64,000 bases of DNA from Thermomonas sp. (lineage in GTDB: Bacteria > Pseudomonadota > Gammaproteobacteria > Xanthomonadales > Xanthomonadaceae). The position numbers and the translations under genes were made by a program. A model generated the notes under the pieces. The model was not told the DNA's origin. It did not search any database and was given only the letters and a program-made list of their open reading frames with translations. The first letter of the stretch is position 1. The number at the start of each line of letters is the position of its first letter. Positions 33,157 through 45,328 of this stretch are shown here, in pieces. The DNA lies in NCBI RefSeq assembly GCF_029945965.1, contig NZ_JAQSDO010000015.1, positions 995,952 through 1,059,951 on the forward strand, in the 5' to 3' direction.

Positions 33157-34098
33157 TCAGGCCGCCTTGATGCGGCAGCGTTGTTCTAGCTGGATGATGT
33201 CCGCGTGCAGGCGTTCGGCCTCGGCGGCATGCATGGATGATAGCGGTTGCAGCGGCAGGCGCAGCCCATGGCCGATCCCATTCAGCGCCAGGAGGGCTTT
33301 CAGGGGAATCGGATTGGGCTCCAAGCCCAGGAAATGGTAAAGCGCATGCAGGCGGGCATCGAACTCCTCCGCCTCGGCCGCATCCCCTGCCCGCGCCAGT
33401 TCGCACAGGCGTCGGAACGCACCCGGCACCACGTTGGATGCCACCGAGACGATGCCGTCGGCGCCTGCCAGCATTGCCCGCAGCGCAGTGGGATCGTCGC
33501 CACTGAGCACGGCGAAGCCCTGCCTGCGCAGCGGCAACAGGCTGTCCATGCGCGATTCATCCGCGCGCGCTTCCTTGATTCCGACGATATTCGGGTGCAT
33601 CGCCAGGTCGGCCGTGGTCTCCGGCGCCATGTCGCAGCCAGTGCGGCCGGGCACGTTATAGAGCACGACCGGCAGCCCGCCCTCATCGGCAACTGCACGG
33701 AAATGCGCGAGCAGGCCGGATTGCGTGGGCCGTACATACGGCGGCGTCACTACCAGCGCGGCATCGGCACCCAGCGCAGCAGCCCGCTGGTTGGCCAGGA
33801 TGGTCTTGGCAGTGTTGGACTGGCCGGTACCCGCCAGCACCGGGATGCGCCCGGCCACGAATGCCACCGCGCTGCGCAGCAGGGTCTCGAATTCGGCATC
33901 GAACAGCGCGGGTGCCTCGCCGGTGGAGCCGGCGACTACCAGGGCATTGGTGCCTGCAGCCAGTTGTGCTTCGAGCAGGCGCTGCCATGCAGGAAGGTCG
34001 ATGTCGCCAGCGTCCGTGAACGGGGTCGCCAGCGCGGTGATACTGCCGGAAAGTTGCAAGGCTGCGGACTCACGAAGAAGGCGCCGGGCAGGATGCAT
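33157..34098 (-). CDS. dapA: 4-hydroxy-tetrahydrodipicolinate synthase
   Basis: DapA condenses pyruvate and aspartate semialdehyde in lysine/diaminopimelate synthesis. It is an (alpha/beta)8 lyase with the Schiff-base lysine in GIKEARAD, the [10 protein letters not shown] tyrosine and the N-terminal [11 protein letters not shown] and [12 protein letters not shown] motifs. Of the 313 residues, the first 15 ([15 protein letters not shown]) are unlike the family; a TTG inside ALQLSGS could be the real start. It forms a pair with the bamC-like gene and is divergent from gcvR. Confidence 0.94.
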
Positions 34099-34245
34099 GC
34101 CGACGCGGGGAAGGGCTCGGCCGGGGCCGATTCAGGCTTGATCTTACTTGCGGCGCAAAAGCACCGGCAAGTATGCTGCAGGTATTCGGCACCCAGCCAC
34201 GACCCAGGCGCCGCACACACACCTCCTTTTGCACGGACGCTGCAC

Positions 34246-34806
34246 TTGACCGATATCACGCCACGGCCAGCGCCGAATGAAAACCACCTGCTGATCAACG
34301 CGTACACCACGCACCCGCAGTCGCCCTTGCTCGCCGTGACCCGGCGCATCGCCGATTCCGGCTGCAACCTGGTCGATACGCGGCTGGCCACAGTCGGTCG
34401 CGACGTCTCCGTGTCCGCGCTCGCCACCGGTTCCTGGGACGCGGTGGCGAAGCTCGAGACCATGCTAGCCAAGCTCGAGCGCGAGGAAGGCCTGAAACTG
34501 GTCTGGTATCGCACCGGCCCCAAGCAGGTGCAGTCCAACCTGCTGCCCTACGTGGTCGAGGTGATCGCCTCGGACAAACCCGGAATCATGTTCCAGCTCG
34601 CGGATTTCTTCGACGGCCAGGGCATCACCATCGAGAGCCTGCATTGCGCGCGATACCGTGCGATGCAGACCGGGGCTGACATGTTTTCCGCGCAACTGAC
34701 GATTGGTATCCCGTCAGACATGCACATCGCCGCCTTGCGCGACGATTTCCTTGAATTCTGCGACCATCTGAACCTCGACGCGATCATGGATCCAATGAAA
34801 TATTGA
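34246..34806 (+). CDS. gcvR: Glycine cleavage system repressor-type protein (two ACT domains)
   Basis: A 186-residue protein with two ACT domains, as in GcvR: ENHLLINAYTTHPQSPLLAV, then RRIADSGCNLVDTRLATVGR, and VVEVIASDKPGIMFQLADFF, then DGQGITIESLHCARYRA. No DNA-binding domain is present; E. coli GcvR works by binding GcvA. No ATG fits, and the TTG at 34246 gives the usual start (LTDITPRPAPNENH). It is divergent from dapA and 30 bases before bcp, a common trio. Confidence 0.88.
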   Translation: MTDITPRPAPNENHLLINAYTTHPQSPLLAVTRRIADSGCNLVDTRLATVGRDVSVSALATGSWDAVAKLETMLAKLEREEGLKLVWYRTGPKQVQSNLLPYVVEVIASDKPGIMFQLADFFDGQGITIESLHCARYRAMQTGADMFSAQLTIGIPSDMHIAALRDDFLEFCDHLNLDAIMDPMKY

Positions 34807-34836
34807 TGGGTGGGCATTGCTAATGGATCTCGTCTA

Positions 34837-35304
34837 ATGGACATCGGCGACCGCATTCCCGACTTGCCGCTCAGCCTCACCAGCGGCACCCCGGCGAGCC
34901 TGCACGATTTCCGCGGCAAATGGCTGGTGTTGTATTTCTACCCGAAGGACTCGACCCCGGCCTGCACTAACGAAGGCATCGCCTTCAACGAGCTGCTGAC
35001 CAAGTTCCGCCGCGCTGGCGCTGATGTCCTCGGCGTGTCGCGCGACTCGATTCGCAGCCACCAGAACTTCACTGCCAAACAGGGATATCGCTTCGAGCTG
35101 GCCAGCGATCCGGACGAGACCTTGTGCAAGGCGTTCGACGTGATCAAGCTGAAGAAACTGTATGGCCGCGAATACCTCGGCATCGAGCGCACGACCTTCC
35201 TGATCGACCCGATCGGCGTCATCCGCCAGACATGGCGACCTGTCAAAGTCCCCGGCCATGCGCAAGCCGTGCTGGATGCCTTGAAGGCTGCCACGTCGCA
35301 GTGA
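34837..35304 (+). CDS. bcp: Thioredoxin-dependent peroxiredoxin (BCP/PrxQ)
   Basis: A 155-residue peroxiredoxin that reduces H2O2 and alkyl hydroperoxides. The peroxidatic Cys43 lies in FYPKDSTPACTNEGIAFNEL, with the conserved Pro-x-x-Thr. The resolving cysteine five residues later in E. coli BCP is absent; a Cys near 96 (DETLCKAF) may serve instead, as in some PrxQ forms. The ATG at 34837 is preferred to 34810, which adds an odd nine-residue tail. It lies next to gcvR. Confidence 0.93.
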   Translation: MDIGDRIPDLPLSLTSGTPASLHDFRGKWLVLYFYPKDSTPACTNEGIAFNELLTKFRRAGADVLGVSRDSIRSHQNFTAKQGYRFELASDPDETLCKAFDVIKLKKLYGREYLGIERTTFLIDPIGVIRQTWRPVKVPGHAQAVLDALKAATSQ

Positions 35305-35389
35305 TCGTTCCTGTCTCCACGAATCACCTCCGTCCCGCCCTGCGGGCCACGGCGGCCCTGTCCTGCCCGACTCCAACGGAAGCCAGTCC

Positions 35390-36787
35390 ATGACGCGAAG
35401 CAAGCGCATCTACGTCCTCGACACCAATGTGCTGATGCACGACCCGACTGCGTTGTACAAGTTCGAGGAACACGATGTGTACCTGCCGATGCAGGTGATG
35501 GAGGAGCTGGACAACGGCAAGAAAGGCACCTCTGAAGCCAGCCGTAACGCACGCCAAGTCAGCCGCTTCCTCAATGAGCTGATCGAGGCCCACGGCAGTA
35601 CCGATATCAGCGATGGGATCTTGCTGCAACGGCCAAACGGCCTGAAATTGCGCGGCGCGGACAGCATTGGCAGGCTGCGTTTCCAGACCGGCGATTTCGA
35701 TGCCGGCCGGCGCTTCGGCACTGTGATCCCGGACAACCAGATCCTCGGCGCGATTTTGGCGCTGAAGGAATCCGACCCCGGCGCGCCGGTGGTATTCGTG
35801 TCCAAGGACATCAACCTGCGGATCAAGGCGTCGATCGCCGGCATTCCCAACGAGGACTACGAGAACGACCGCGCACTGGACGATTTCAGCCTGCTCTACA
35901 CAGGCGCCACCGCGCTGCCGCCGAATTTTTGGGAAATCCACGGCAAAGAACTGCGCTCCTGGACCGAAAAGGGCCGGACTTATTACGAAATTGCCCTGAA
36001 TGACGACGATGACTGGTATCCCAACCAGTTCGTCTACCTGCCGGGCGACGAACAGGCCGAAATGAAGGTCGCCCGCCTCACCGATGACAAGATCGTGCTG
36101 CAGATCGTCGATGACTTCCGTCACAGCCAGCACGCGGTATGGGGCATCAACGCGCGCAACCGCGAGCAGAACTTCGCGCTCAATGCGCTGATGGATCCGG
36201 AGATCGATTTCGTCACCCTGCTCGGCACCGCCGGCACCGGCAAGACCCTGCTGGCGCTGGCTGCTGGCCTTGCGCAAACCATGGACGCGCAGCGCTACCG
36301 CGAGATCATCATGACCCGCGCAACCGTGAGTGTCGGCGAGGACATCGGCTTCCTGCCCGGCACCGAGGAAGAAAAAATGACGCCGTGGATGGGTGCGCTG
36401 ACCGACAACCTGGAAGTGCTGACCCACAACCAGGAAGGCGGCAGCTGGGGCCGCGCAGCTACCAATGATTTACTGGCGTCAAGGATCAAGATCCGATCGA
36501 TGAACTTCATGCGCGGGCGCACATTCCTGTCGCGCTACCTGATCCTGGACGAAGCGCAGAACCTGTCGCCAAAACAGATGAAGACCTTGGTCACCCGCGC
36601 TGGCCCGGGCACCAAGATCGTCTGCCTGGGCAATGTCGAGCAGATCGATACGCCTTACCTGACCGAAACCAACTCGGGCCTGACCTACGCGGTGGATCGC
36701 TTCAAGAACTGGGCGCACAGCGCGCACATCACACTGCGCCGCGGCGAGCGCTCGCGTCTGGCCGATTTCGCGTCAGAAGTGTTGTGA
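35390..36787 (+). CDS. PhoH-like ATPase with N-terminal PIN domain (YlaK type)
   Basis: A 465-residue protein. Residues 1-150 form a PIN ribonuclease-type domain (YVLDTNVLMHDPTALYKF with the first acidic residue, later ENDRALDDFSL), and residues about 230-460 a PhoH P-loop ATPase with Walker A GTAGTGKTLLAL and Walker B YLILDEAQNLSPKQMKTL. PIN-PhoH proteins are linked to RNA handling and are thought to be RNA helicase/nuclease-like. It stands alone, 85 bases after bcp. Confidence 0.92.
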   Translation: MTRSKRIYVLDTNVLMHDPTALYKFEEHDVYLPMQVMEELDNGKKGTSEASRNARQVSRFLNELIEAHGSTDISDGILLQRPNGLKLRGADSIGRLRFQTGDFDAGRRFGTVIPDNQILGAILALKESDPGAPVVFVSKDINLRIKASIAGIPNEDYENDRALDDFSLLYTGATALPPNFWEIHGKELRSWTEKGRTYYEIALNDDDDWYPNQFVYLPGDEQAEMKVARLTDDKIVLQIVDDFRHSQHAVWGINARNREQNFALNALMDPEIDFVTLLGTAGTGKTLLALAAGLAQTMDAQRYREIIMTRATVSVGEDIGFLPGTEEEKMTPWMGALTDNLEVLTHNQEGGSWGRAATNDLLASRIKIRSMNFMRGRTFLSRYLILDEAQNLSPKQMKTLVTRAGPGTKIVCLGNVEQIDTPYLTETNSGLTYAVDRFKNWAHSAHITLRRGERSRLADFASEVL

Positions 36788-36899
36788 CGTTCTAGAAACA
36801 ATCATTATCATGTTTAATATATCTATATCGATATCTGGAGCTTGCATCATGTAGTTTCGAGTGGTGAAATAGACGTTCAAGATTTCCACTCGGCAGATC

Positions 36900-37151
36900 A
36901 TGATTTCATCCGCCCAGATGCGCGCGGCGCGCGCCTTGCTCGGGATCGACCAGCGCCAGCTCGCCCAGCTGGCGGGTGTCTCCCTGCCCACCGTGCAGCG
37001 CATGGAGGCCAGCAATGGCATCGTGCGCGGGATGGTCGGCACCTTGAACAGGATCGTCGAAGCACTGGATGCCACCGGCGTCGAACTGATCGCCAACGAC
37101 CAGCCCAGCCAGGGCCGGGGACGCGGCGTACGGTTGAAGGACTCTGCATGA
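36900..37151 (+). CDS. Small XRE-type helix-turn-helix regulator
   Basis: An 83-residue protein made of one HTH domain: SAQMRAARALLGIDQRQLAQ, then LAGVSLPTVQRMEASNGIVR and IVEALDATGVELIAND. It has no sensing domain. The ATG is preceded by an unusually A+T-rich stretch (36788-36899, with TTTAATATATCTATATCGATAT), a likely promoter or operator. It is 109 bases before the Ehr-type complex genes, on the same strand, so control of that cluster is the obvious guess. It could also act only on itself. Confidence 0.8.
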   Translation: MISSAQMRAARALLGIDQRQLAQLAGVSLPTVQRMEASNGIVRGMVGTLNRIVEALDATGVELIANDQPSQGRGRGVRLKDSA

Positions 37152-37260
37152 TGTTCTGCATCGAGAGCGCAGGCATGTCCGATCGCCGCACCCACACTGA
37201 TGCGGAACAACGTGGTTACAGCGATCACGCAGCCTTTGCACTTGCCATTGGCGAGCTCCG

Positions 37261-39258
37261 GTGCCGATCGACCTGCTAACCGCAGCACTCGCCGTCGCTG
37301 CCGGCTGGGTCCTGATCGGCCTGGCAGGATTGTTGCGACCGCGCAGCGTTGTGTTTACTGGGCGCTGGCTGTTTTCACTGGGAGTGGTCGGTGGCCTGGC
37401 GTTGGCAGTCATCGGCGTGCTGGCGCTGACAGGGCCCATCCAGGTCCAGGTGTTGCCGATCGGGCTGCCCGATCTGCCATTCCACGTACGCCTGGATCCA
37501 CTGGCGGCGATCTTCCTGAGTCTGATCGGCACAGCATCAACTGGCATCTCGCTGTATTCGGCAGGCTATTTTCGCGCCGGCGAAGGCGCCGCGCCCGGAC
37601 TGATGTGCCTGCAGTACCACGTGTTCCTGGCGAGCATGGTGATGGTGGTCCTGGCTGACGATGCCTACGCCTTCATGGTTGCCTGGGAGACCATGGCGTT
37701 GGCGTCGTATTTCCTGGTGACCACCCAGCATCGGGTACCCGAGATCCGTGCTGCCGGTTTTCTCTACCTGCTGCTCGCCCACATTGGGGCCATCGGTATC
37801 CTGCTGTGCTTCGGCGTGCTGCAGGGCGGTTCGTGGCAATTCACCTTCGACGCCATGCGTGCCGCCTCGCTCTCTCCAGCCTGGGCGTCGATCGCCTTTT
37901 TCCTGGCCTTGTTCGGTTTCGGTGCCAAGGCTGGCATCGTGCCGCTGCATGTGTGGTTACCGGAAGCGCACCCCGCGGCACCTTCGCCGGTGTCGGCGCT
38001 GATGAGCGGGGTGATGATCAAGACTGCGATCTACGGACTGATTCGGGTCACCTTTGACCTGCTGCATACGCCCGTCTGGTGGTGGGGCGTGGTGGCGCTC
38101 ATGCTCGGCGCGTTCACCGCGCTGTTCGGGGTGGTTTTTGCGGCGGTGCAGACCGACATGAAACGGCTGCTCGCATATTCGTCGATCGAGAATAGCGGGA
38201 TCATCCTGTCCGGGTTCGGCCTGACCGTGCTGTTCCATGGCCTGCACATGCCCGTTGCGGCGTCGCTGACCATGGCGGCGACGCTGTATCACTGCCTCAA
38301 CCACTCGCTGTTCAAAAGCCTGCTGTTCCTTGCCACCGGTTCGGTGCTGCACGCGACCGGCGAGCGCAACCTCGGCAAGCTCGGCGGGCTGATCCACAGC
38401 ATGCCGTGGGTGGCGTGGTTGGCGCTGGTCGGCACGCTGGCGATGGCCGGTCTGCCGCCGCTCAACGGCTTCGTCTCCGAATGGCTGCTGCTGCAGGGCT
38501 ACCTGTACACAACCAGCCTTCCGCACGCGATCATCAACATGCTGGTGCCGATCGGTGCTGCAGCTTTTACGCTGACCATCGCCCTGTCGGCCTACGTGAT
38601 GGTGAAATTTTACGGCGTGGTGTTCCTGGGCCGGCCACGCGAGAAGGCGCTGGTACAGGCACAGGATGCCGGCTGGCTGGAGCGTTTCGGCCTTGGTTGG
38701 CTGGCACTGGGTTGCATCGCACTGGGTCTGATGCCGGTCACCGTGCTGCGCGCGCTCGACGCGGTAAACCTCAGTCTGCTTGGATCGGGCCTCGGCGACC
38801 TGTCGAAGCATTGGTGGTTACTGACACCGACCGCCGCCAGTCGCGCCAGTTACAGCCCGCTGGCGTTCGCTGCCGGCATCCTGCTGGCGGTTGCCCTGAC
38901 CTTCCTCTGCGTGCGCCTGCTCTATCACGGCCGCGTGCGCAGGGCGGATTTCTGGGATTGTGGATTCCCCGGACAGACCGCGCGCGTGCAGGATACCGCC
39001 GAGGGCTTCGGCCAGCCGATCCGACGCATCTTCCGACCGTTCTTCCAGATCGAACGCCAGAGCCCCTCTCCATTCGACAGTGCGCCGCATTACGCGCTGC
39101 AGCTCGGTGACCGTTGGTGGTATTGGCTGTACCTGCCAGTGGCGGCCGGCGTGCTGGGCGTGGCGAAACTCGTAGGCCGGCTACAACACGGGCGAATCGC
39201 GATCTACCTGCTGTACAGCTTTGTCACCCTGCTGGCCCTGTTGGTGTTCGTGCTGTGA
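37261..39258 (+). CDS. hyfB: Hydrogenase-4/NuoL-like antiporter subunit of an Ehr-type complex
   Basis: A 665-residue membrane protein (GTG start) of the proton-conducting family. AWETMALASYFLVTTQHRVP holds the conserved Glu, and KAGIVPLHVWLPEAHPAAPS the conserved Lys and the HWLPxAH signature; about 14-16 helices are expected. Each antiporter-like subunit moves one cation per cycle. It opens a six-gene run (HyfB, C, E, F, G, I types) with overlaps or short gaps. The Fe-S subunits HyfA and HyfH are missing. Confidence 0.88.
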   Translation: MPIDLLTAALAVAAGWVLIGLAGLLRPRSVVFTGRWLFSLGVVGGLALAVIGVLALTGPIQVQVLPIGLPDLPFHVRLDPLAAIFLSLIGTASTGISLYSAGYFRAGEGAAPGLMCLQYHVFLASMVMVVLADDAYAFMVAWETMALASYFLVTTQHRVPEIRAAGFLYLLLAHIGAIGILLCFGVLQGGSWQFTFDAMRAASLSPAWASIAFFLALFGFGAKAGIVPLHVWLPEAHPAAPSPVSALMSGVMIKTAIYGLIRVTFDLLHTPVWWWGVVALMLGAFTALFGVVFAAVQTDMKRLLAYSSIENSGIILSGFGLTVLFHGLHMPVAASLTMAATLYHCLNHSLFKSLLFLATGSVLHATGERNLGKLGGLIHSMPWVAWLALVGTLAMAGLPPLNGFVSEWLLLQGYLYTTSLPHAIINMLVPIGAAAFTLTIALSAYVMVKFYGVVFLGRPREKALVQAQDAGWLERFGLGWLALGCIALGLMPVTVLRALDAVNLSLLGSGLGDLSKHWWLLTPTAASRASYSPLAFAAGILLAVALTFLCVRLLYHGRVRRADFWDCGFPGQTARVQDTAEGFGQPIRRIFRPFFQIERQSPSPFDSAPHYALQLGDRWWYWLYLPVAAGVLGVAKLVGRLQHGRIAIYLLYSFVTLLALLVFVL

Positions 39259-40205
39259 GCGCGCGCGAGCTGCTGATGGCAGTGATCGACACCGGCTTGG
39301 CGGTGTTGGTGGCCCCGCTGCTGATCGGCTGGGTGGATCAATGCCGGGCATGGTTGCAGAACCGGCGCGGCGCCGGCGTGCTGCAGTCGTATCGGGTGCT
39401 GCGCAAGCTGATGCACAAGGATGCGGTCATTGCGAACGGCGCGTCACCCCTGTTCCGCGCCTCACCCTACATCCAGTTTGGCGCGATGGTACTGGCCGCG
39501 ATGATCATTCCCACCTTCGGCGCCGATGCTGCGCTGGGTTCGGCCGCCGACACCATCGCCTTGGTCGGCGTGTTCGCGGTGGCGCGGGTCTTCATGGCGC
39601 TGGCGGCGATGGACATCGGCACCGCCTTCGGCTCGCTCGGCGCGCGCCGGGAAATGTTGATCGGCTTTCTCGCCGAACCCGCCCTGCTGATGGTGTTTTT
39701 CACTGCATCGATGATCTCCGCAAGCACCTTGCTGCCAACCATCATCGGCACCCTGTCGAGCGCCCAGTTGGTGATCTATCCGAGTCTGGCGTTCAGCGCG
39801 ATCGCCTTCGTGATGGTGCTGCTGGCCGAAAACGCGCGCGTCCCGATCGACAACCCGACCACCCACCTCGAACTGACCATGATCCACGAGGCCATGGTGC
39901 TGGAATATTCGGCACGGCACCTGGCACTTATCGAATGGGGTTCGGCACTGAAGTTGCTCAACTACGTCGCCATCGGGATCGCCATGTTCGCACCCTGGGG
40001 GCTGGCCAGTAGCGACGCCGGCTTGGCCACAATCCTCGGTGCCTGGTTGATCACGCTAGGCAAGCTGGCCATCGCCGGTACCGGGCTGGCGCTGATCGAG
40101 ACGCTGAGCGCAAAACTGCGCATCTTCCGCGCACCCGAGTTCCTTGCCACCGCCTTTCTGCTCGCAGTGCTTGGCCTTCTCGTCCACCAGTTGCTGGAGA
40201 TCTGA
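39255..40205 (+). CDS. hyfC: HyfC/NuoH-like membrane subunit
   Basis: A 316-residue subunit of the complex-I NuoH/HycD family that links the soluble arm to the membrane arm. The GTG start overlaps the hyfB stop (GTGA). Visible signatures are RRGAGVLQSYRVLRKLMHKD near the start, ALAAMDIGTAFGSLGARREM, and ENARVPIDNPTTHLELTMIH, the acidic loop conserved from hydrogenases to complex I. About eight helices. Nothing is odd. Confidence 0.9.
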   Translation: MSARELLMAVIDTGLAVLVAPLLIGWVDQCRAWLQNRRGAGVLQSYRVLRKLMHKDAVIANGASPLFRASPYIQFGAMVLAAMIIPTFGADAALGSAADTIALVGVFAVARVFMALAAMDIGTAFGSLGARREMLIGFLAEPALLMVFFTASMISASTLLPTIIGTLSSAQLVIYPSLAFSAIAFVMVLLAENARVPIDNPTTHLELTMIHEAMVLEYSARHLALIEWGSALKLLNYVAIGIAMFAPWGLASSDAGLATILGAWLITLGKLAIAGTGLALIETLSAKLRIFRAPEFLATAFLLAVLGLLVHQLLEI

Positions 40206-40208
40206 GCG

Positions 40209-40877
40209 ATGACCGCGCTCCCGCTCTCCACCCAGTTGATCAATCTGTGCGCAGCGCTGCTACTGTTGACTTCGTTCGCGATGCTCTCGCAGCGGCGCAT
40301 CGTCTCGCTGGTGAACCTGTTCGCCGTGCAGGGCGGCGTGCTCACCGCGTCCACCGCGATCGTCGCGTACAGCTCCGGCCAGCACCACCTGTACTACTCG
40401 GCCGTGCTGTCCGGCGTGCTCAAGGTGCTGCTGCTGCCGTGGATCCTGCATCGCCTGATAGCGCGACTGAACGTGCGCTGGGATACCGAACCGCTGATCA
40501 ATATCCCCACCACGATGCTGGTCGGGATCGTGCTGGTGGTGTTCTCGTTCGGGTTGGCGCAACCCGTCACGCAACTGGCGACGACCATTTCGCATGGCAC
40601 GCTCGGCATCGCGCTGGCGGTGGTGATGCTGTCGTTCCTGATGATGATCACCCGCACCAAGGCAATCTCGCAGGTGGTCGGATTCCTGGCGATGGAGAAC
40701 GGGCTGTTCTTCGCTGCAACAAGCGCGACCTACGGCATGCCGATGGTGGTCGAGCTGGGCGTCGCCCTCGATGTGCTGGTCGGCATGGTGATCCTCGGCG
40801 TGTTCTTCTTCCAGATTCGCGAACAGTTCGACAGCCTCGACCTGGAGCACATGGAAAAGCTCAAGGAAGACGACTGA
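40209..40877 (+). CDS. hyfE: HyfE-like (NuoK-type) membrane subunit
   Basis: A 222-residue protein with six or seven helices. The C-terminal half is NuoK-like (GFLAMENGLFFAATSATYGM with the conserved Glu, ELGVALDVLVGMVILGVFFF) and the N-terminal half is an extra set of helices, as in HyfE. It starts 3 bases after hyfC and ends one base before hyfF. Confidence 0.87.
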   Translation: MTALPLSTQLINLCAALLLLTSFAMLSQRRIVSLVNLFAVQGGVLTASTAIVAYSSGQHHLYYSAVLSGVLKVLLLPWILHRLIARLNVRWDTEPLINIPTTMLVGIVLVVFSFGLAQPVTQLATTISHGTLGIALAVVMLSFLMMITRTKAISQVVGFLAMENGLFFAATSATYGMPMVVELGVALDVLVGMVILGVFFFQIREQFDSLDLEHMEKLKEDD

Positions 40878-40878
40878 G

Positions 40879-42330
40879 ATGGAACTGTTCCTGCTGCTCA
40901 CCACGCCTGTATTCGGCTGTCTGGTCCTGACCATGGTCGGTGCGCGCCGCTGGGCGCCGGAGGTCAATGTCGGTTTCAGCTTCGTCACCTTCCTGGCCAG
41001 CATCGCGCTGACCGCCCGGGTGATGGCGCATGGTCCGATGTTGGCCGGCAACGAGCAGTTTTTCGTCGACCCATTCAATGTCTTCCTGGTCGCGCTCACC
41101 GCCTTCGTCGGCCTGACCACCGCGTTGTTTTCACGTCCTTACATGCGCATCGAGGAAGCACACGGCCGCCTGACCCCGGCGCGATCCCGCCTGTACCACA
41201 GTATGTACCAGTTGTTCATGTCCACAATGCTGCTGGCACTGCTGACCAACAACCTCGGCCTGCTGTGGGTAGCGATGGAGGCGGCGACCCTGTCGACCGT
41301 GTTGCTGGTTTCGCTGTATCGCACACCGGCCAGCCTGGAAGCGGCGTGGAAGTACTTCATCCTGTGTGGTGTCGGCATCGCGCAGGCGTTGTTCGGGACG
41401 ATCCTGTTGTATTTCGCAGCGGAAAAGGTGCTCGGCGGCGAAGGCAGCACGGCCTTGCTGTGGACCCACCTGAACGCCGTCAAGGGCCAGCTCGAACCGA
41501 CCGTACTCGCCCTCGCCTTCGTGTTCCTGCTGGTCGGCTACGGCACCAAGATCGGGCTGGCGCCGCTGCACAACTGGCTACCAGATGCCCACGCCGAAGG
41601 TCCCACACCGGTATCGGCGGTGCTCTCCGGACTGCTGCTCAATGTCGCCGTGTATGCGGTGGTGCGCTGCAAAGTGCTGGTCGATGGCGCAGTGCACACC
41701 GGCCTGGCCAGCAACCTGATGATGGGCTTCGGGTTGTTTTCGGTGCTGCTGTCCTCGTTCTTCCTGTGGCGGCAGAAGGACATCAAGCGGTTGTTCGGCT
41801 ACTCGTCGATCGAGCACATGGGGATCATCACGTTCGCCTTTGGCATGGGCGGGCCGGTCGCGAACTTTGCCGCACTGCTGCACATGACCGTGCACTCGCT
41901 GACCAAGTCGGCGATCTTCTTCACCGTGGGCCACGCGACGCAGAAAGCCGGAACCCAGGTGATGGATTCGATCCGCGGGCTGATTGTGGTCAGCCCATCC
42001 ATCGGCTGGGGCCTGATGATCGGCACCCTGGCAATCCTCGGGATGCCGCCATTTGGGGTGTTCGCCAGCGAATTCCTGATCCTGACCACAGCGATGCGCG
42101 ATCATCCGTGGGCGACGCCGATCTTGTTGCTGGCACTGGGTATCGCGTTCGCCGCAATCTTCACCCGCGTCCAGTCGATGGTCTTCGGCGAAACCAATCT
42201 CAAGCGATTACCACATTCGCCGGCGCTGGTGCCGGTGTTTGCCCACCTCGGCCTCGTGCTTTGCCTTGGCTTGTACATTCCACCGGCACTGGCCAACTGG
42301 TACCGGCTGGCGGCGGAGTTGATCGGATGA
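40879..42330 (+). CDS. hyfF: HyfF-like antiporter subunit
   Basis: A 483-residue antiporter-type subunit. LLWVAMEAATLSTVLLVSLY carries the conserved Glu, and KIGLAPLHNWLPDAHAEGPT the Lys and signature; then KRLFGYSSIEHMGIITFAFG. It is the second such subunit, so the complex could couple to two or more ion channels. The stop overlaps the hyfG ATG (ATGA). Confidence 0.9.
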   Translation: MELFLLLTTPVFGCLVLTMVGARRWAPEVNVGFSFVTFLASIALTARVMAHGPMLAGNEQFFVDPFNVFLVALTAFVGLTTALFSRPYMRIEEAHGRLTPARSRLYHSMYQLFMSTMLLALLTNNLGLLWVAMEAATLSTVLLVSLYRTPASLEAAWKYFILCGVGIAQALFGTILLYFAAEKVLGGEGSTALLWTHLNAVKGQLEPTVLALAFVFLLVGYGTKIGLAPLHNWLPDAHAEGPTPVSAVLSGLLLNVAVYAVVRCKVLVDGAVHTGLASNLMMGFGLFSVLLSSFFLWRQKDIKRLFGYSSIEHMGIITFAFGMGGPVANFAALLHMTVHSLTKSAIFFTVGHATQKAGTQVMDSIRGLIVVSPSIGWGLMIGTLAILGMPPFGVFASEFLILTTAMRDHPWATPILLLALGIAFAAIFTRVQSMVFGETNLKRLPHSPALVPVFAHLGLVLCLGLYIPPALANWYRLAAELIG

Positions 42331-43883
42331 GCACCGTCATGCCCTATGCCGATCTCGGCATTGCACTGCAGACCATCGCCGGCGAGTTGCCGGCGCGCCA
42401 CTGCACGCTCGATGACGAACACCTGATCACCCTGTGCCATACCGTGCGCGACGATGGCGGCCATATGTTGAGCCTGTGGGGCGAGGACAGACGCGCGCAC
42501 GAGGGCGGATTTGCGCTGCTGGTTGCCCTGCAGGACGACGATGGCCTGCTGGTCGCACAACTGCCGCTGCCTGCCGACAACCCTGTGCATCCCGACCTGA
42601 GCATGATTTTTCCGGTCGCCGACCACCTGCAACGCGCCAACTTCGATCTGCTCGGCATCCGCGCCAGCGGCGGCGATCCACGCGGCTGGCTGTGGCACGG
42701 ACATTGGCCGCAGCCCACTTTTCCGCTGCGCTGTCCGCAACCTGGCGACGACGAAATCGAGCGCGGCAATGACGCCTATCAGTTTGTCCGGGTCACCGGC
42801 GACGGCGTTCACGAAATCGCGGTTGGCCCGGTGCATGCGGGCATTATTGAACCCGGGCATTTCCGCTTTTCCGTGGTGGGCGAAAAGGTGCTGCGCCTGG
42901 AACCGCGCCTGGGTTATGCCCACAAGGGGATCGAAAAACGCTTCGAATCGATGGCTCTGGCCGATGCGGTGCGGTTGGCCGCGCGGGTATCGGGAGACAG
43001 CGCCGCTGCCTATGCCTGGGCGTTTGCGATGGCGGCTGAATCGCTGACCGCGACCCCGGTGCCGGCACGAGCGAGTGCCTTGCGCGCACTGCTGCTGGAA
43101 CGCGAGCGCATCGCAAACCATCTTGGCGACCTGGGTGCGCTCGGCAACGATGGCGGCTTCGCTTTTGGCCTGAGCCAGTTCTCCCGGCTGAAGGAGAACC
43201 TGCTGCGCGCGAACGCGAGCGCATTTGGCGCCCGCTATCCGATGGATGCCATCGTTCCGGGCGGTTGCCGCTGCGATCTGTCCGATCAGGCCCGCGATGA
43301 ACTGTTGGCATCGATCGCGGCACTCGAACCCGAAGTGCACACCTTGCACGAGATCTACGCCAACCACTCAGGCCTGCAGGACCGTTTTCGCGACACCGGT
43401 CGGATCAATCCGGCACTAGTCGAGCGACTGGGCGTGATCGGCATGGCCGCACGCGCAACCGGCTTCCGCCGCGACTGGCGGCTGGACTTGCCGGTAGTGC
43501 CCTACCCCGAGCTGGACGTGGCACCGGCCGTGTTCGGCCAGGGCGATGTGGCGGCACGCGTGGCAGTGCGTTTCGCCGAGGTGTTCGAATCGTTGCGGCT
43601 GTGCCGGAAACTGCTGGAAACCCTGCCATCCGGAGCGACTTTGGTGCCACTGGGCGATGTGGAAGGCGACGGTTTCGGGATCGGTGGTGTCGAAGGCTGG
43701 CGCGGGCCGGTGTTCGTCGCCGTGCGTGCCGACGTTGACGGCCGCATCCTTCGCTGCCATCCACACGATCCATCCTGGCAAAACTGGCAGGTGATCGAAC
43801 ACGCAGCCATCGACAACATCGTTCCGGATTTCCCGCTGATCAACAAATCCTTCAACCTGTCCTACAGTGGGGTGGACCTGTGA
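42327..43883 (+). CDS. hyfG: HyfG-like large subunit without the [NiFe]-binding cysteines
   Basis: A 518-residue fusion of a NuoC-like part (about residues 1-150) and a NuoD/hydrogenase-large-subunit-like part. RLEPRLGYAHKGIEKRFESM matches the family, and ERERIANHLGDLGALGNDGG the next helix. Where hydrogenases have the first CxxC (R-x-C-G-x-C), it reads R220-V-S-G-D-S. The end, expected DPCxxC, reads FNLSYSGVDL. All four Ni ligands are therefore gone and it cannot be a hydrogenase. It retains no quinone-type signature I can confirm. Confidence 0.88.
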   Translation: MSTVMPYADLGIALQTIAGELPARHCTLDDEHLITLCHTVRDDGGHMLSLWGEDRRAHEGGFALLVALQDDDGLLVAQLPLPADNPVHPDLSMIFPVADHLQRANFDLLGIRASGGDPRGWLWHGHWPQPTFPLRCPQPGDDEIERGNDAYQFVRVTGDGVHEIAVGPVHAGIIEPGHFRFSVVGEKVLRLEPRLGYAHKGIEKRFESMALADAVRLAARVSGDSAAAYAWAFAMAAESLTATPVPARASALRALLLERERIANHLGDLGALGNDGGFAFGLSQFSRLKENLLRANASAFGARYPMDAIVPGGCRCDLSDQARDELLASIAALEPEVHTLHEIYANHSGLQDRFRDTGRINPALVERLGVIGMAARATGFRRDWRLDLPVVPYPELDVAPAVFGQGDVAARVAVRFAEVFESLRLCRKLLETLPSGATLVPLGDVEGDGFGIGGVEGWRGPVFVAVRADVDGRILRCHPHDPSWQNWQVIEHAAIDNIVPDFPLINKSFNLSYSGVDL

Positions 43884-43911
43884 GGCGCTGCATGCACGAA
43901 CGAACATCACG

Positions 43912-44424
43912 ATGCTGAAGACGCTCCGGCACATCGCCCGGATCGGGCTGGTCAGCGAACCCGCACCGCCAGCGGATACCACGCTGTGTTCGCCAGACAT
44001 GCTGCACGACGAAATCTGGAAAGTGTTCGGTCGCGCGCTGTGTCTGCGCTTTGTGGATGCCGGCTCATGCAATGCTTGCGAACTGGAGTTGCAGGCACTG
44101 GGCAACCCCTACTACAACCTCGAAGGCCTGGGCATCAAATTCGTCGCCAGCCCGCGCCATGCCGACGTGCTGCTGGTCACCGGCCCGATGGGTGCCAACA
44201 TGGCCGAGGCGCTGCGCCGCACCCACGCCGCCATGCCCGATCCGAAACGGGTCATCGCAATCGGCGATTGCGCGGCCTGCGGCGGAATCTTCGGGGAGAG
44301 TTACGCCAGCCTCGGCAAAGTGGCCAACGTGATCCCGGTGGATGTGACGATCCGCGGCTGTCCGCCGACCCCGACAGCCCTGCTACAAGGCATCCTTGCG
44401 GCAGCGATCGGCAAGGCAGCTTGA
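43912..44424 (+). CDS. hyfI: HyfI/NuoB-like small Fe-S subunit
   Basis: A 170-residue subunit holding the proximal [4Fe-4S] cluster. Cys53 and Cys56 ([14 protein letters not shown]), one cysteine in the [18 protein letters not shown] stretch and the last in RGCPPTPT are kept, so the cluster (N2-like) is probably present. The ATG at 43912 is 28 bases after hyfG. It is the only Fe-S subunit encoded here: no ferredoxin-like HyfA or HyfH follows, so the electron donor is unknown. The next gene is thiD. Confidence 0.9.

Positions 44425-44500: not shown

Positions 44501-45324
<824 letters not shown>

Positions 45325-45328
<4 letters not shown>

Follow-up and report, generated by a model that had tools for sequence, protein, structure and literature searches.

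An Ehr complex without a NiFe site stands in a Thermomonas genomic slot that holds an XRE regulator and a SulP transporter in most sister species

Introduction

A window of 64,000 nucleotides from Thermomonas sp. (RefSeq assembly GCF_029945965.1, contig NZ_JAQSDO010000015.1, positions 995,952 to 1,059,951, forward strand) encodes an Ehr complex, a relative of hydrogenase-4 that lacks the [NiFe] site, directly behind a small XRE-type regulator. In most sister species, the same slot between phoH and thiD/fabB holds a homolog of this regulator and a SulP anion transporter. The pairing of the XRE with Ehr in this slot, exchanged with the SulP of sister species, is the part of our results that goes beyond the known Ehr class. 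Because Ehr occupies the position behind a regulator that holds SulP in most sister species, we infer that the two may do the same physiological job. We tentatively propose, at slightly less than even chances, that Ehr is an energised substitute for a SulP-type anion carrier, with bicarbonate or inorganic carbon as the most likely substrate.

In the literature, Ehr complexes are described as lacking the residues that coordinate Ni and Fe, with a formate dehydrogenase (FDH) proposed as partner (PMC6349859), as lacking CxxC motifs and having no known function (PMC10284858), and, citing Coppi 2005, as non-functional (PMC13194489). A hydrogenase-4-like cluster without HyfA has also been reported (PMC4136832). 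Among the matches listed from the open-licence literature, none linked Ehr to SulP, bicarbonate or this XRE, and the accessible part of a review of the dissolved inorganic carbon toolkit (PMC10880623) contains no word beginning with hydrogenase.

Results

The phoH-thiD slot holds XRE-Ehr in the window and XRE-SulP in most congeners

The slot and its contents in the window are as follows.

35390-36787, + strand: phoH, left border of the slot, present in 25/25 genus genomes
36808-36824, + strand: candidate operator TCATGTTTAATATATCT, a degenerate TGATGT-N5-ACATCA that starts 92 bp before the XRE start
36900-37151, + strand: XRE-type regulator, 83 aa (Pfam HTH_31 / HTH_3, over cut-off)
37261-39258, + strand: hyfB, antiporter-like subunit, 665 aa (NCBIfam NF005086 hydrogenase 4 subunit B, over cut-off)
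39276-40205, + strand: hyfC, NuoH-like subunit (Pfam NADHdh, 1.3e-28)
40209-40877, + strand: hyfE, 222 aa (NCBIfam NF008556 hydrogenase 4 membrane subunit, 2.1e-27, below its cut-off)
40879-42330, + strand: hyfF, antiporter-like subunit, 483 aa (NCBIfam NF005045 hydrogenase 4 subunit F, over cut-off)
42327-43883, + strand: hyfG, NuoCD/HycE-like large subunit without Ni-Fe ligands, 518 aa (Pfam NuoC/NuoD-like; HycE alignment)
43912-44424, + strand: hyfI, NuoB-like [4Fe-4S] subunit (Pfam Oxidored_q6)
44501-45328, + strand: thiD, right border of the slot (named by sequence reading; homologs by tblastn)

All seven open reading frames (ORFs) of the original prediction, six for the cassette and one for the XRE, were found where it had placed them; the starts of hyfC (39276) and hyfI (43912) are the chosen first ATG of the conserved part. 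The hyfE product had no Pfam match, and we take it to be the NuoK-like subunit. Upstream of the cassette, dapA-gcvR-bcp-phoH occupies 33157-36787, and a hydrolase, fabB and fabA (names from sequence reading) follow thiD to ~47.9 kb. The gcvR-bcp-phoH order is retained in those genus loci that extend far enough, and dapA is present in most.

We read the slot in 24 congeners without Ehr and found XRE-SulP in 18, with XRE proteins 64-80% identical to that of the window. The XRE-SulP unit lay on the same strand as phoH, as does XRE-Ehr in the window, in ten of these congeners and on the opposite strand in eight; the SulP match was partial in G011 and in two pieces in G022, and a hydrolase or other gene intervenes between phoH and XRE in some congeners. 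A further genome (G017) has SulP at a contig end in the slot, and five (G001, G004, G005, G009, and G013) have a DUF1275 gene there and neither XRE nor SulP. Pfam searches confirmed SulP in five slot representatives and DUF1275 in one. The window's genome contains no close slot-type SulP, its best matches being 25-36% identical. Base composition was uninformative as a sign of recent arrival, as the G+C content of the cassette (0.64) is within the range of its flanks (0.61 left, 0.64 right).

Most XRE homologs stand before hyfB or SulP

Ehr loci were drawn from two sources. A scan of genome contigs gave at least 578 loci, of which the best 80 were taken; with the window and two relatives these make 83 loci, and 40 more from a sample of 369 genomes of the class bring the set to 123. 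In the class sample, 44 genomes carry Ehr (HyfG match at E <=1e-90). A profile search of the 369 genomes for the XRE gave 18 matches, 14 of them directly before hyfB (the window's genome included) and three before SulP (G046, G093, and G151), and 13 of the 18 genomes with XRE were among the 44 with Ehr (p about 1e-9; here and below, tests at the genome level treat genomes as independent and ignore kinship). Among the 123 Ehr loci, XRE was found in ten, the window included, and always directly upstream of hyfB. Because 14 of 18 homologs stand directly before hyfB, the idea that the XRE is a putative switch of Ehr, a guess of the original prediction, gains support from gene order.

Both arrangements also occur on plasmids, where 61 records match Ehr (Rhizobium 31, Azospirillum 8, Cupriavidus 6, Paraburkholderia 4, and Burkholderia 4 among them) and Rhodococcus plasmids carry it too. 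At six plasmid sites of the XRE that we read, SulP was the next gene in five (Novosphingobium, Tistrella, Sphingobium, Geminicoccaceae, and Microvirga), and the Ensifer record ends at the XRE. In ten plasmid records read from the Ehr side, XRE preceded hyfB in four, all alphaproteobacterial (Rhizobium, Bradyrhizobium, Methylovirgula, and Ciceribacter); the Ehr plasmid records read of Azospirillum, Rhodococcus, Methylocalor, Variovorax, Paraburkholderia, and Cupriavidus had no such XRE. Three plasmids, each from a different genus (L255, L257, and L262), carry a YjdM/PhnA-type gene, annotated as zinc ribbon YjdM or alkylphosphonate utilization protein, close to XRE, XRE-SulP, and Ehr.

The window's regulator and its complex have different closest relatives. 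In a tree of 43 XRE sequences plus that of the window, the window XRE was nested in the XRE-SulP group of the genus (support 0.96, clade of 11); one locus, L216 (G007), was scored 'none' by the downstream rule used for labeling, though SulP adjoins XRE there. A tree of HyfG copies of at least 380 aa paired the window with L028 (0.98), which comes from a metagenome-assembled genome (MAG) of the Lysobacteraceae and has no such XRE at the locus, and placed the window apart from the nine other XRE-Ehr loci. Since its XRE belongs with the XRE-SulP lineage and its HyfG with an XRE-less lineage, the pairing in the window looks independent of that in the other XRE-Ehr lineage.

A common palindrome upstream of XRE-SulP and XRE-Ehr units

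A TGATGT-N5-ACATCA palindrome recurs upstream of XRE in both types of unit. The consensus was read by eye, before scoring, from the same upstream regions that were then scored, mostly the XRE-SulP ones. In 26 XRE-SulP upstream regions it was exact in 7 and within two mismatches in 24 (shuffled mean 0.20), and in 19 XRE-Ehr regions it was exact in 1, within two mismatches in 8 (shuffled mean 0.17), and within three in 16 (shuffled mean 1.55). At three mismatches, no shuffle out of 200 gave as many matches as were observed, whichever set was used. The candidate operator of the window has three mismatches, is not significant alone (matches of this quality number 27 across the window, against 21.4 expected), and overlaps a promoter-like -10 box.

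SulP is rare in Ehr genomes and enriched beside Ehr loci

Slot-type SulP, at a threshold of E <=1e-80 fixed before the search, was present in 63 of the 369 class genomes, that is, in 1/44 with Ehr versus 62/325 without (p=0.0025). Around Ehr loci, we compared genes at most two gene places away with genes farther off, using an in-house codon-usage gene caller; families were counted via chosen representatives, and the p-values are uncorrected for the several families compared. SulP made up 10 of 366 near genes and 1 of 506 far genes (p=0.001); of the pair of SulP genes in locus L037, one counts as near and the other as far, and the near SulP genes of L026 and L035 lie on the other strand. Malic enzyme was also enriched (4 near, 0 far, p=0.03). 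The commonest of the counted families was a spermidine-synthase-like gene (13 near, 3 far, p=0.002, with some loci counted more than once), found at L045:12119-12931 and at 15 similar places in 11 further loci. DUF1275 (YoaK) was near Ehr 7 times and far once (p=0.01). Its occurrences near Ehr in the Burkholderiales are in L053, L058, L060, L063, L066, L067, L074, and L059. As DUF1275 is near Ehr in the Burkholderiales and in the slot of five congeners, it may belong to the same functional set as Ehr and XRE-SulP.

Several neighbors handle inorganic carbon or C4 acids. The names RuBisCO (except in L093), CbbS, malic enzyme, phosphoenolpyruvate carboxykinase (PEPCK), and Sat come from sequence reading or mutual blast, and that of the PEPCK beside Novosphingobium XRE-SulP and Bradyrhizobium XRE-Ehr is as annotated. 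In Thiobacillus (L050), the order read by eye is SulP, gamma-carbonic anhydrase, Ehr, and then an opposite-strand RuBisCO operon, whose large subunit is 31% identical to the Pfam-confirmed RuBisCO of L093; a second hyfF-like gene masked this RuBisCO from the near/far count. Downstream of Ehr in Thiomonas (L093) come RuBisCO and CbbQ (both by Pfam). SulP and gamma-carbonic anhydrase recur together in L081, and in L048 and L145 a protein weakly related to the carboxysomal carbonic anhydrase (CsoSCA-like) follows Ehr. A PEPCK-DUF983 pair adjoins XRE-SulP in Novosphingobium and lies ~2 kb downstream of XRE-Ehr in Bradyrhizobium. Two loci of a single family (L142 and L176) have Sat-like genes, named by sequence reading, in the vicinity of Ehr (2 near, 2 far in the count). 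Together, the neighbors suggest CO2/bicarbonate as the simplest common thread.

In at least three of the 22 class genomes with both Ehr and RuBisCO, the two are on one contig (~16 kb apart in G369, ~38 kb in G140, ~29 kb in G192). In locus L146 of G369, RuBisCO lies within 10 kb of Ehr.

The cassette is a six-subunit Ehr complex with a rebuilt NiFe site

Family matches and the alignment with HycE uphold the assignment of the original prediction to an Ehr-type class that is hydrogenase-4-like without a NiFe site: we found group 4 homology, absence of both CxxC pairs, and NuoB-like [4Fe-4S] and antiporter-like subunits. The window cassette shares with the Ehr class a group-4-like large subunit without CxxC pairs, a NuoB-like Fe-S protein, two antiporter subunits, and NuoH- and NuoK-like subunits, and differs in having exactly six subunits, no ferredoxin subunit, and a regulator of an XRE family common to SulP transporters.

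HyfG residues 78-517 align with E. coli HycE (7z0s_E, E=2.2e-47), the top match among solved structures, and HyfG also matches the Mbh alpha subunit (2.7e-34). In the alignment, RVSGDS of HyfG stands opposite RVCGIC of HycE, and SFNLSYSGVD opposite SLDPCYSCTD, bearing out the claimed loss of both CxxC pairs; HyfG thus lacks the group 4 [NiFe] signature RxCGxC plus DPCxxC. An AlphaFold model of HyfG (pLDDT 77.9, pTM 0.85) likewise had HycE 7z0s_E as its best PDB match (TM 0.85), and the fold also matches NuoCD. Two parts of this model have pLDDT <50, namely the E175 loop and the motif at the C-terminus (500-518), and the model does not resolve the geometry of the former NiFe pocket.

By sequence comparison, E175, R220, D224, N510, and Y513 are near-invariant at or around the former pocket, and D224 is retained in 98% of 120 HyfG homologs. 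The pattern R-[VIL]-[SAC]-G-D-[STCA] was matched by 82/86 HyfG copies, and NKSxN..Y..D was present near the C-terminal end of 83/86; exceptions were the first copies of L080 (a true hydrogenase) and L065 (diverged), L086 (RESGDS), L095 (RICADS), and L091, which has a different C-terminus. This conservation of the rebuilt site among homologs argues against decay. HyfG I174 and G223 sit at the columns of the complex I quinone ligands His38 and Tyr87 (Thermus Nqo4 numbering), and so the quinone-site residues are replaced.

The Fe-S and antiporter parts are also conserved. The cluster cysteines of HyfI that the original prediction had called intact (CxxC, C, C) are all present, and C54, C57, C121, and C151 (numbering of P0007) are invariant in 118/118 aligned homologs. 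Conservation was at least 0.99 for HyfB E143, K223, K301, H348, K352, and E407 (102 homologs) and for HyfF E134, K224, K303, K343, and E398 (116 homologs). All residue counts exclude second copies per locus, the window duplicate L027, and copies with in-frame stops (hyfG of L091 and L167, hyfB pieces of L099 and L150, and the hyfC piece of L099); the HyfG set includes two distant copies from G098 (RVSGVG and RLSGSS) that have neither the CxxC pair nor D224. No called gene in the 123 loci, flanks included (at most ~10 kb, as contigs allow), contains two CxxCxxCxxxC motifs, in keeping with the predicted absence of a ferredoxin-like subunit from the cassette. We also saw no recurring redox partner among the Ehr neighbors read.

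A few loci depart from the single-cassette pattern. In L080 (1-4428), from a groundwater betaproteobacterium MAG, a true group 4 [NiFe] large subunit (RICGVC, ELCYSCTDR; 40% identical to HyfG) lies directly upstream of the Ehr cassette. L073 (12403-19512) has two Ehr cassettes in tandem, and in L065 (73-3756) a diverged NiFe-less copy (TIAGDT, 35% identity) lies directly upstream of a normal Ehr copy. Genome G098 carries two distant group-4-like cassettes (L173 and L174) with the order C-E-F-G-I-B, whose HyfG proteins (RVSGVG or RLSGSS) have neither CxxC nor the Asp and so represent another NiFe-less type. In L167, from the 1.0 Mb genome G373, the Ehr genes show an in-frame stop and split matches, possibly as a decaying copy.

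Distribution, genomic location, and hydrogenase genes elsewhere

The order B-C-E-F-G-I recurs over the 83 loci far beyond chance. Where cassette genes are absent, the contig mostly ends there; the few other cases include L097 and L098, in which hyfB gave no tblastn match. Close relatives are sparse: among 60 related genomes, two have clear HyfG relatives (G028, same family, 55%; G050, same order, 44%), and G042 and G052 have weak matches (26% over ~300 residues). The 24 same-genus genomes gave only weak, NuoD-like matches (best E 2.7e-12). Ehr relatives are also found in Nitrospirae MAGs.

E. coli hydrogenase-4 and formate hydrogenlyase (HyfA-J, HycB-G) have the same subunit families in the order B-C-E-F-G-I, whereas E. 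coli also has HyfA, D, H, and J and the NiFe ligands, which the window cassette lacks. The E. coli K-12 hyf operon likewise stands directly after dapA-gcvR-bcp. We considered common ancestry of the location and tentatively treat the resemblance as chance placement along an ancient gene order, because dapA, gcvR, bcp, and phoH had no tblastn match (1e-15) in any locus but the window's, within flanks of at most ~10 kb and on many contigs that are shorter. Complex I (NuoB, CD, H, K, L, M) has homologs of its membrane arm and Q module in the cassette, which in contrast lacks NuoE, F, G, and I.

The genome gives no sign of a hydrogenase encoded elsewhere. PF00346 matches only two loci, a NuoD and HyfG, and HypD, the one Hyp gene searched for, has no match; these searches did not cover the general NiFe hydrogenase family. 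In the class sample, HypD was found in 19/44 Ehr genomes and 122/325 others (p=0.51), and 25/44 Ehr genomes had no HypD match.

Discussion

In the mechanism that we favor, the XRE would regulate either unit, Ehr or SulP, and Ehr would supply or balance an anion, for which bicarbonate or inorganic carbon is the likeliest candidate. Its ion-pumping arm would be coupled to chemistry at the former NiFe pocket (E175, R220, D224, N510, and Y513) and powered either by the proton gradient or by electrons that enter via HyfI. That the antiporter arm is intact speaks for ion movement, and the presence of a single cluster subunit without a ferredoxin subunit suggests either that a donor docks directly on HyfI or that there is no net electron transfer. 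Precedents exist, in that complex-I-like antiporter subunits serve inorganic carbon in DAB2/DAC and DAB2 is reported to work without net electron transfer (PMC13144422). DAB2/DAC and cyanobacterial NDH-1MS are possible functional analogs of Ehr only: no DabA (DUF2309) domain was found in the six cassette proteins, to which that search was confined, and the cassette encodes no additional CupA-like subunit. A bolder form of the proposal, which we regard as quite doubtful, would make Ehr, next to cyanobacterial NDH-1MS and DAB/MpsAB, a third machine for inorganic carbon derived from complex I, with the NiFe pocket rebuilt around D224 and an Asn/Tyr pair for CO2/bicarbonate and run by the XRE switch of a SulP bicarbonate carrier. 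SulP/SLC26 transporters (BicA, DauA) share the XRE regulator family and the genomic slot with Ehr, and differ from it in being single proteins of unrelated sequence and architecture.

Several observations weigh against an anion-supplying Ehr under XRE control. XRE precedes hyfB in only 10/97 loci with >1 kb of upstream DNA, and most Ehr loci have neither XRE nor SulP adjoining. A weak XRE match in G131 (46% identity) stands before neither hyfB nor SulP, and a second Bradyrhizobium XRE copy (57%) adjoins an SMP-30 gene. When genomes are thinned to families, the exclusion between Ehr and SulP weakens (31 and 48 families, with 4 in common; p 0.007 to 0.054 if 150 to 187 families are assumed in all). 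Carbonic anhydrase and RuBisCO are near few Ehr loci, and the near-far tests for them are not significant. RuBisCO is present in 22/44 Ehr genomes and 153/325 others (p=0.75), and we found no RuBisCO match in the window's genome; because Ehr does not track RuBisCO genome-wide, we reject carbon-fixation specialization as its general role. The window's genome does have a beta-carbonic anhydrase, as do 24/25 genus genomes in all, and so Ehr is not replacing a missing carbonic anhydrase there. The XRE-linked SulP scores best against DauA in NCBIfam, not BicA, albeit below the cut-off of the DauA family; its closest solved structure is 6ki1, which we take to be BicA. Finally, DAB2 lacks the ion-pair motifs (PMC13144422), residues that Ehr keeps, and thus the mechanism would differ and the analogy with DabB2 would be functional only.

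A somewhat unlikely alternative is a redox-driven ion pump, in which a soluble ferredoxin or dehydrogenase docks on HyfI, electrons pass to an acceptor such as quinone close to the former NiFe pocket, and HyfB and HyfF move H+ or Na+; the SulP link would then reflect shared ion or pH homeostasis rather than a shared substrate. The conserved lysines and glutamates of the antiporter arm, the four HyfI cysteines, the likeness of the HyfG fold to HycE and NuoCD, and the proposed coupling of FDH with Ehr (PMC6349859) all fit such a pump. It is harder to reconcile with the lack of any ferredoxin-type gene called in the 123 loci, with neighbors among which no redox partner recurs, and with I174 and G223 at the presumed quinone-ligand positions. 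The shared substrate of XRE-SulP and XRE-Ehr might instead be a C4-dicarboxylate or sulfate, whose uptake Ehr would energize or balance. The slot SulP is DauA-like, DauA is a C4-dicarboxylate transporter (PMC5703999), and thus C4 acids are a possible substrate; malic enzyme and PEPCK near Ehr handle such acids, and Sat-like genes are near Ehr in two loci. We consider this improbable, as the RuBisCO, gamma-carbonic anhydrase, and CsoSCA-like neighbors fit CO2 better, Sat is not enriched, and the DauA score is under that family's cut-off.

Two further readings find still less favor. Mbx is a NiFe-less relative with a ferredoxin subunit, and chain 6u8y_L, which we take to be Mbx, matches HyfG at 9.5e-18, as might be expected of an Mbx-like sulfur or polysulfide reductase on a hydrogenase scaffold; the cassette has no such ferredoxin subunit, and no sulfur gene is enriched near Ehr among the counted families, making this role very unlikely. 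That Ehr is a degenerate, non-functional relic of a hydrogenase is barely credible. Geobacter Ehr has been treated as non-functional for want of a NiFe centre (PMC13194489), but the six intact ORFs, the recurrent gene order, the cysteines and charged residues conserved across 102-120 homologs, and the new near-invariant residues at the old NiFe site all speak against decay.

For the Ehr family, the exchange with SulP behind one regulator turns the statement that the redox partner is unknown into a specific prediction. If Ehr is a stand-in for the SulP transporter, then the same signal would call for Ehr in Thermomonas sp. and for SulP in its sister species, and each should be able to substitute for the other.

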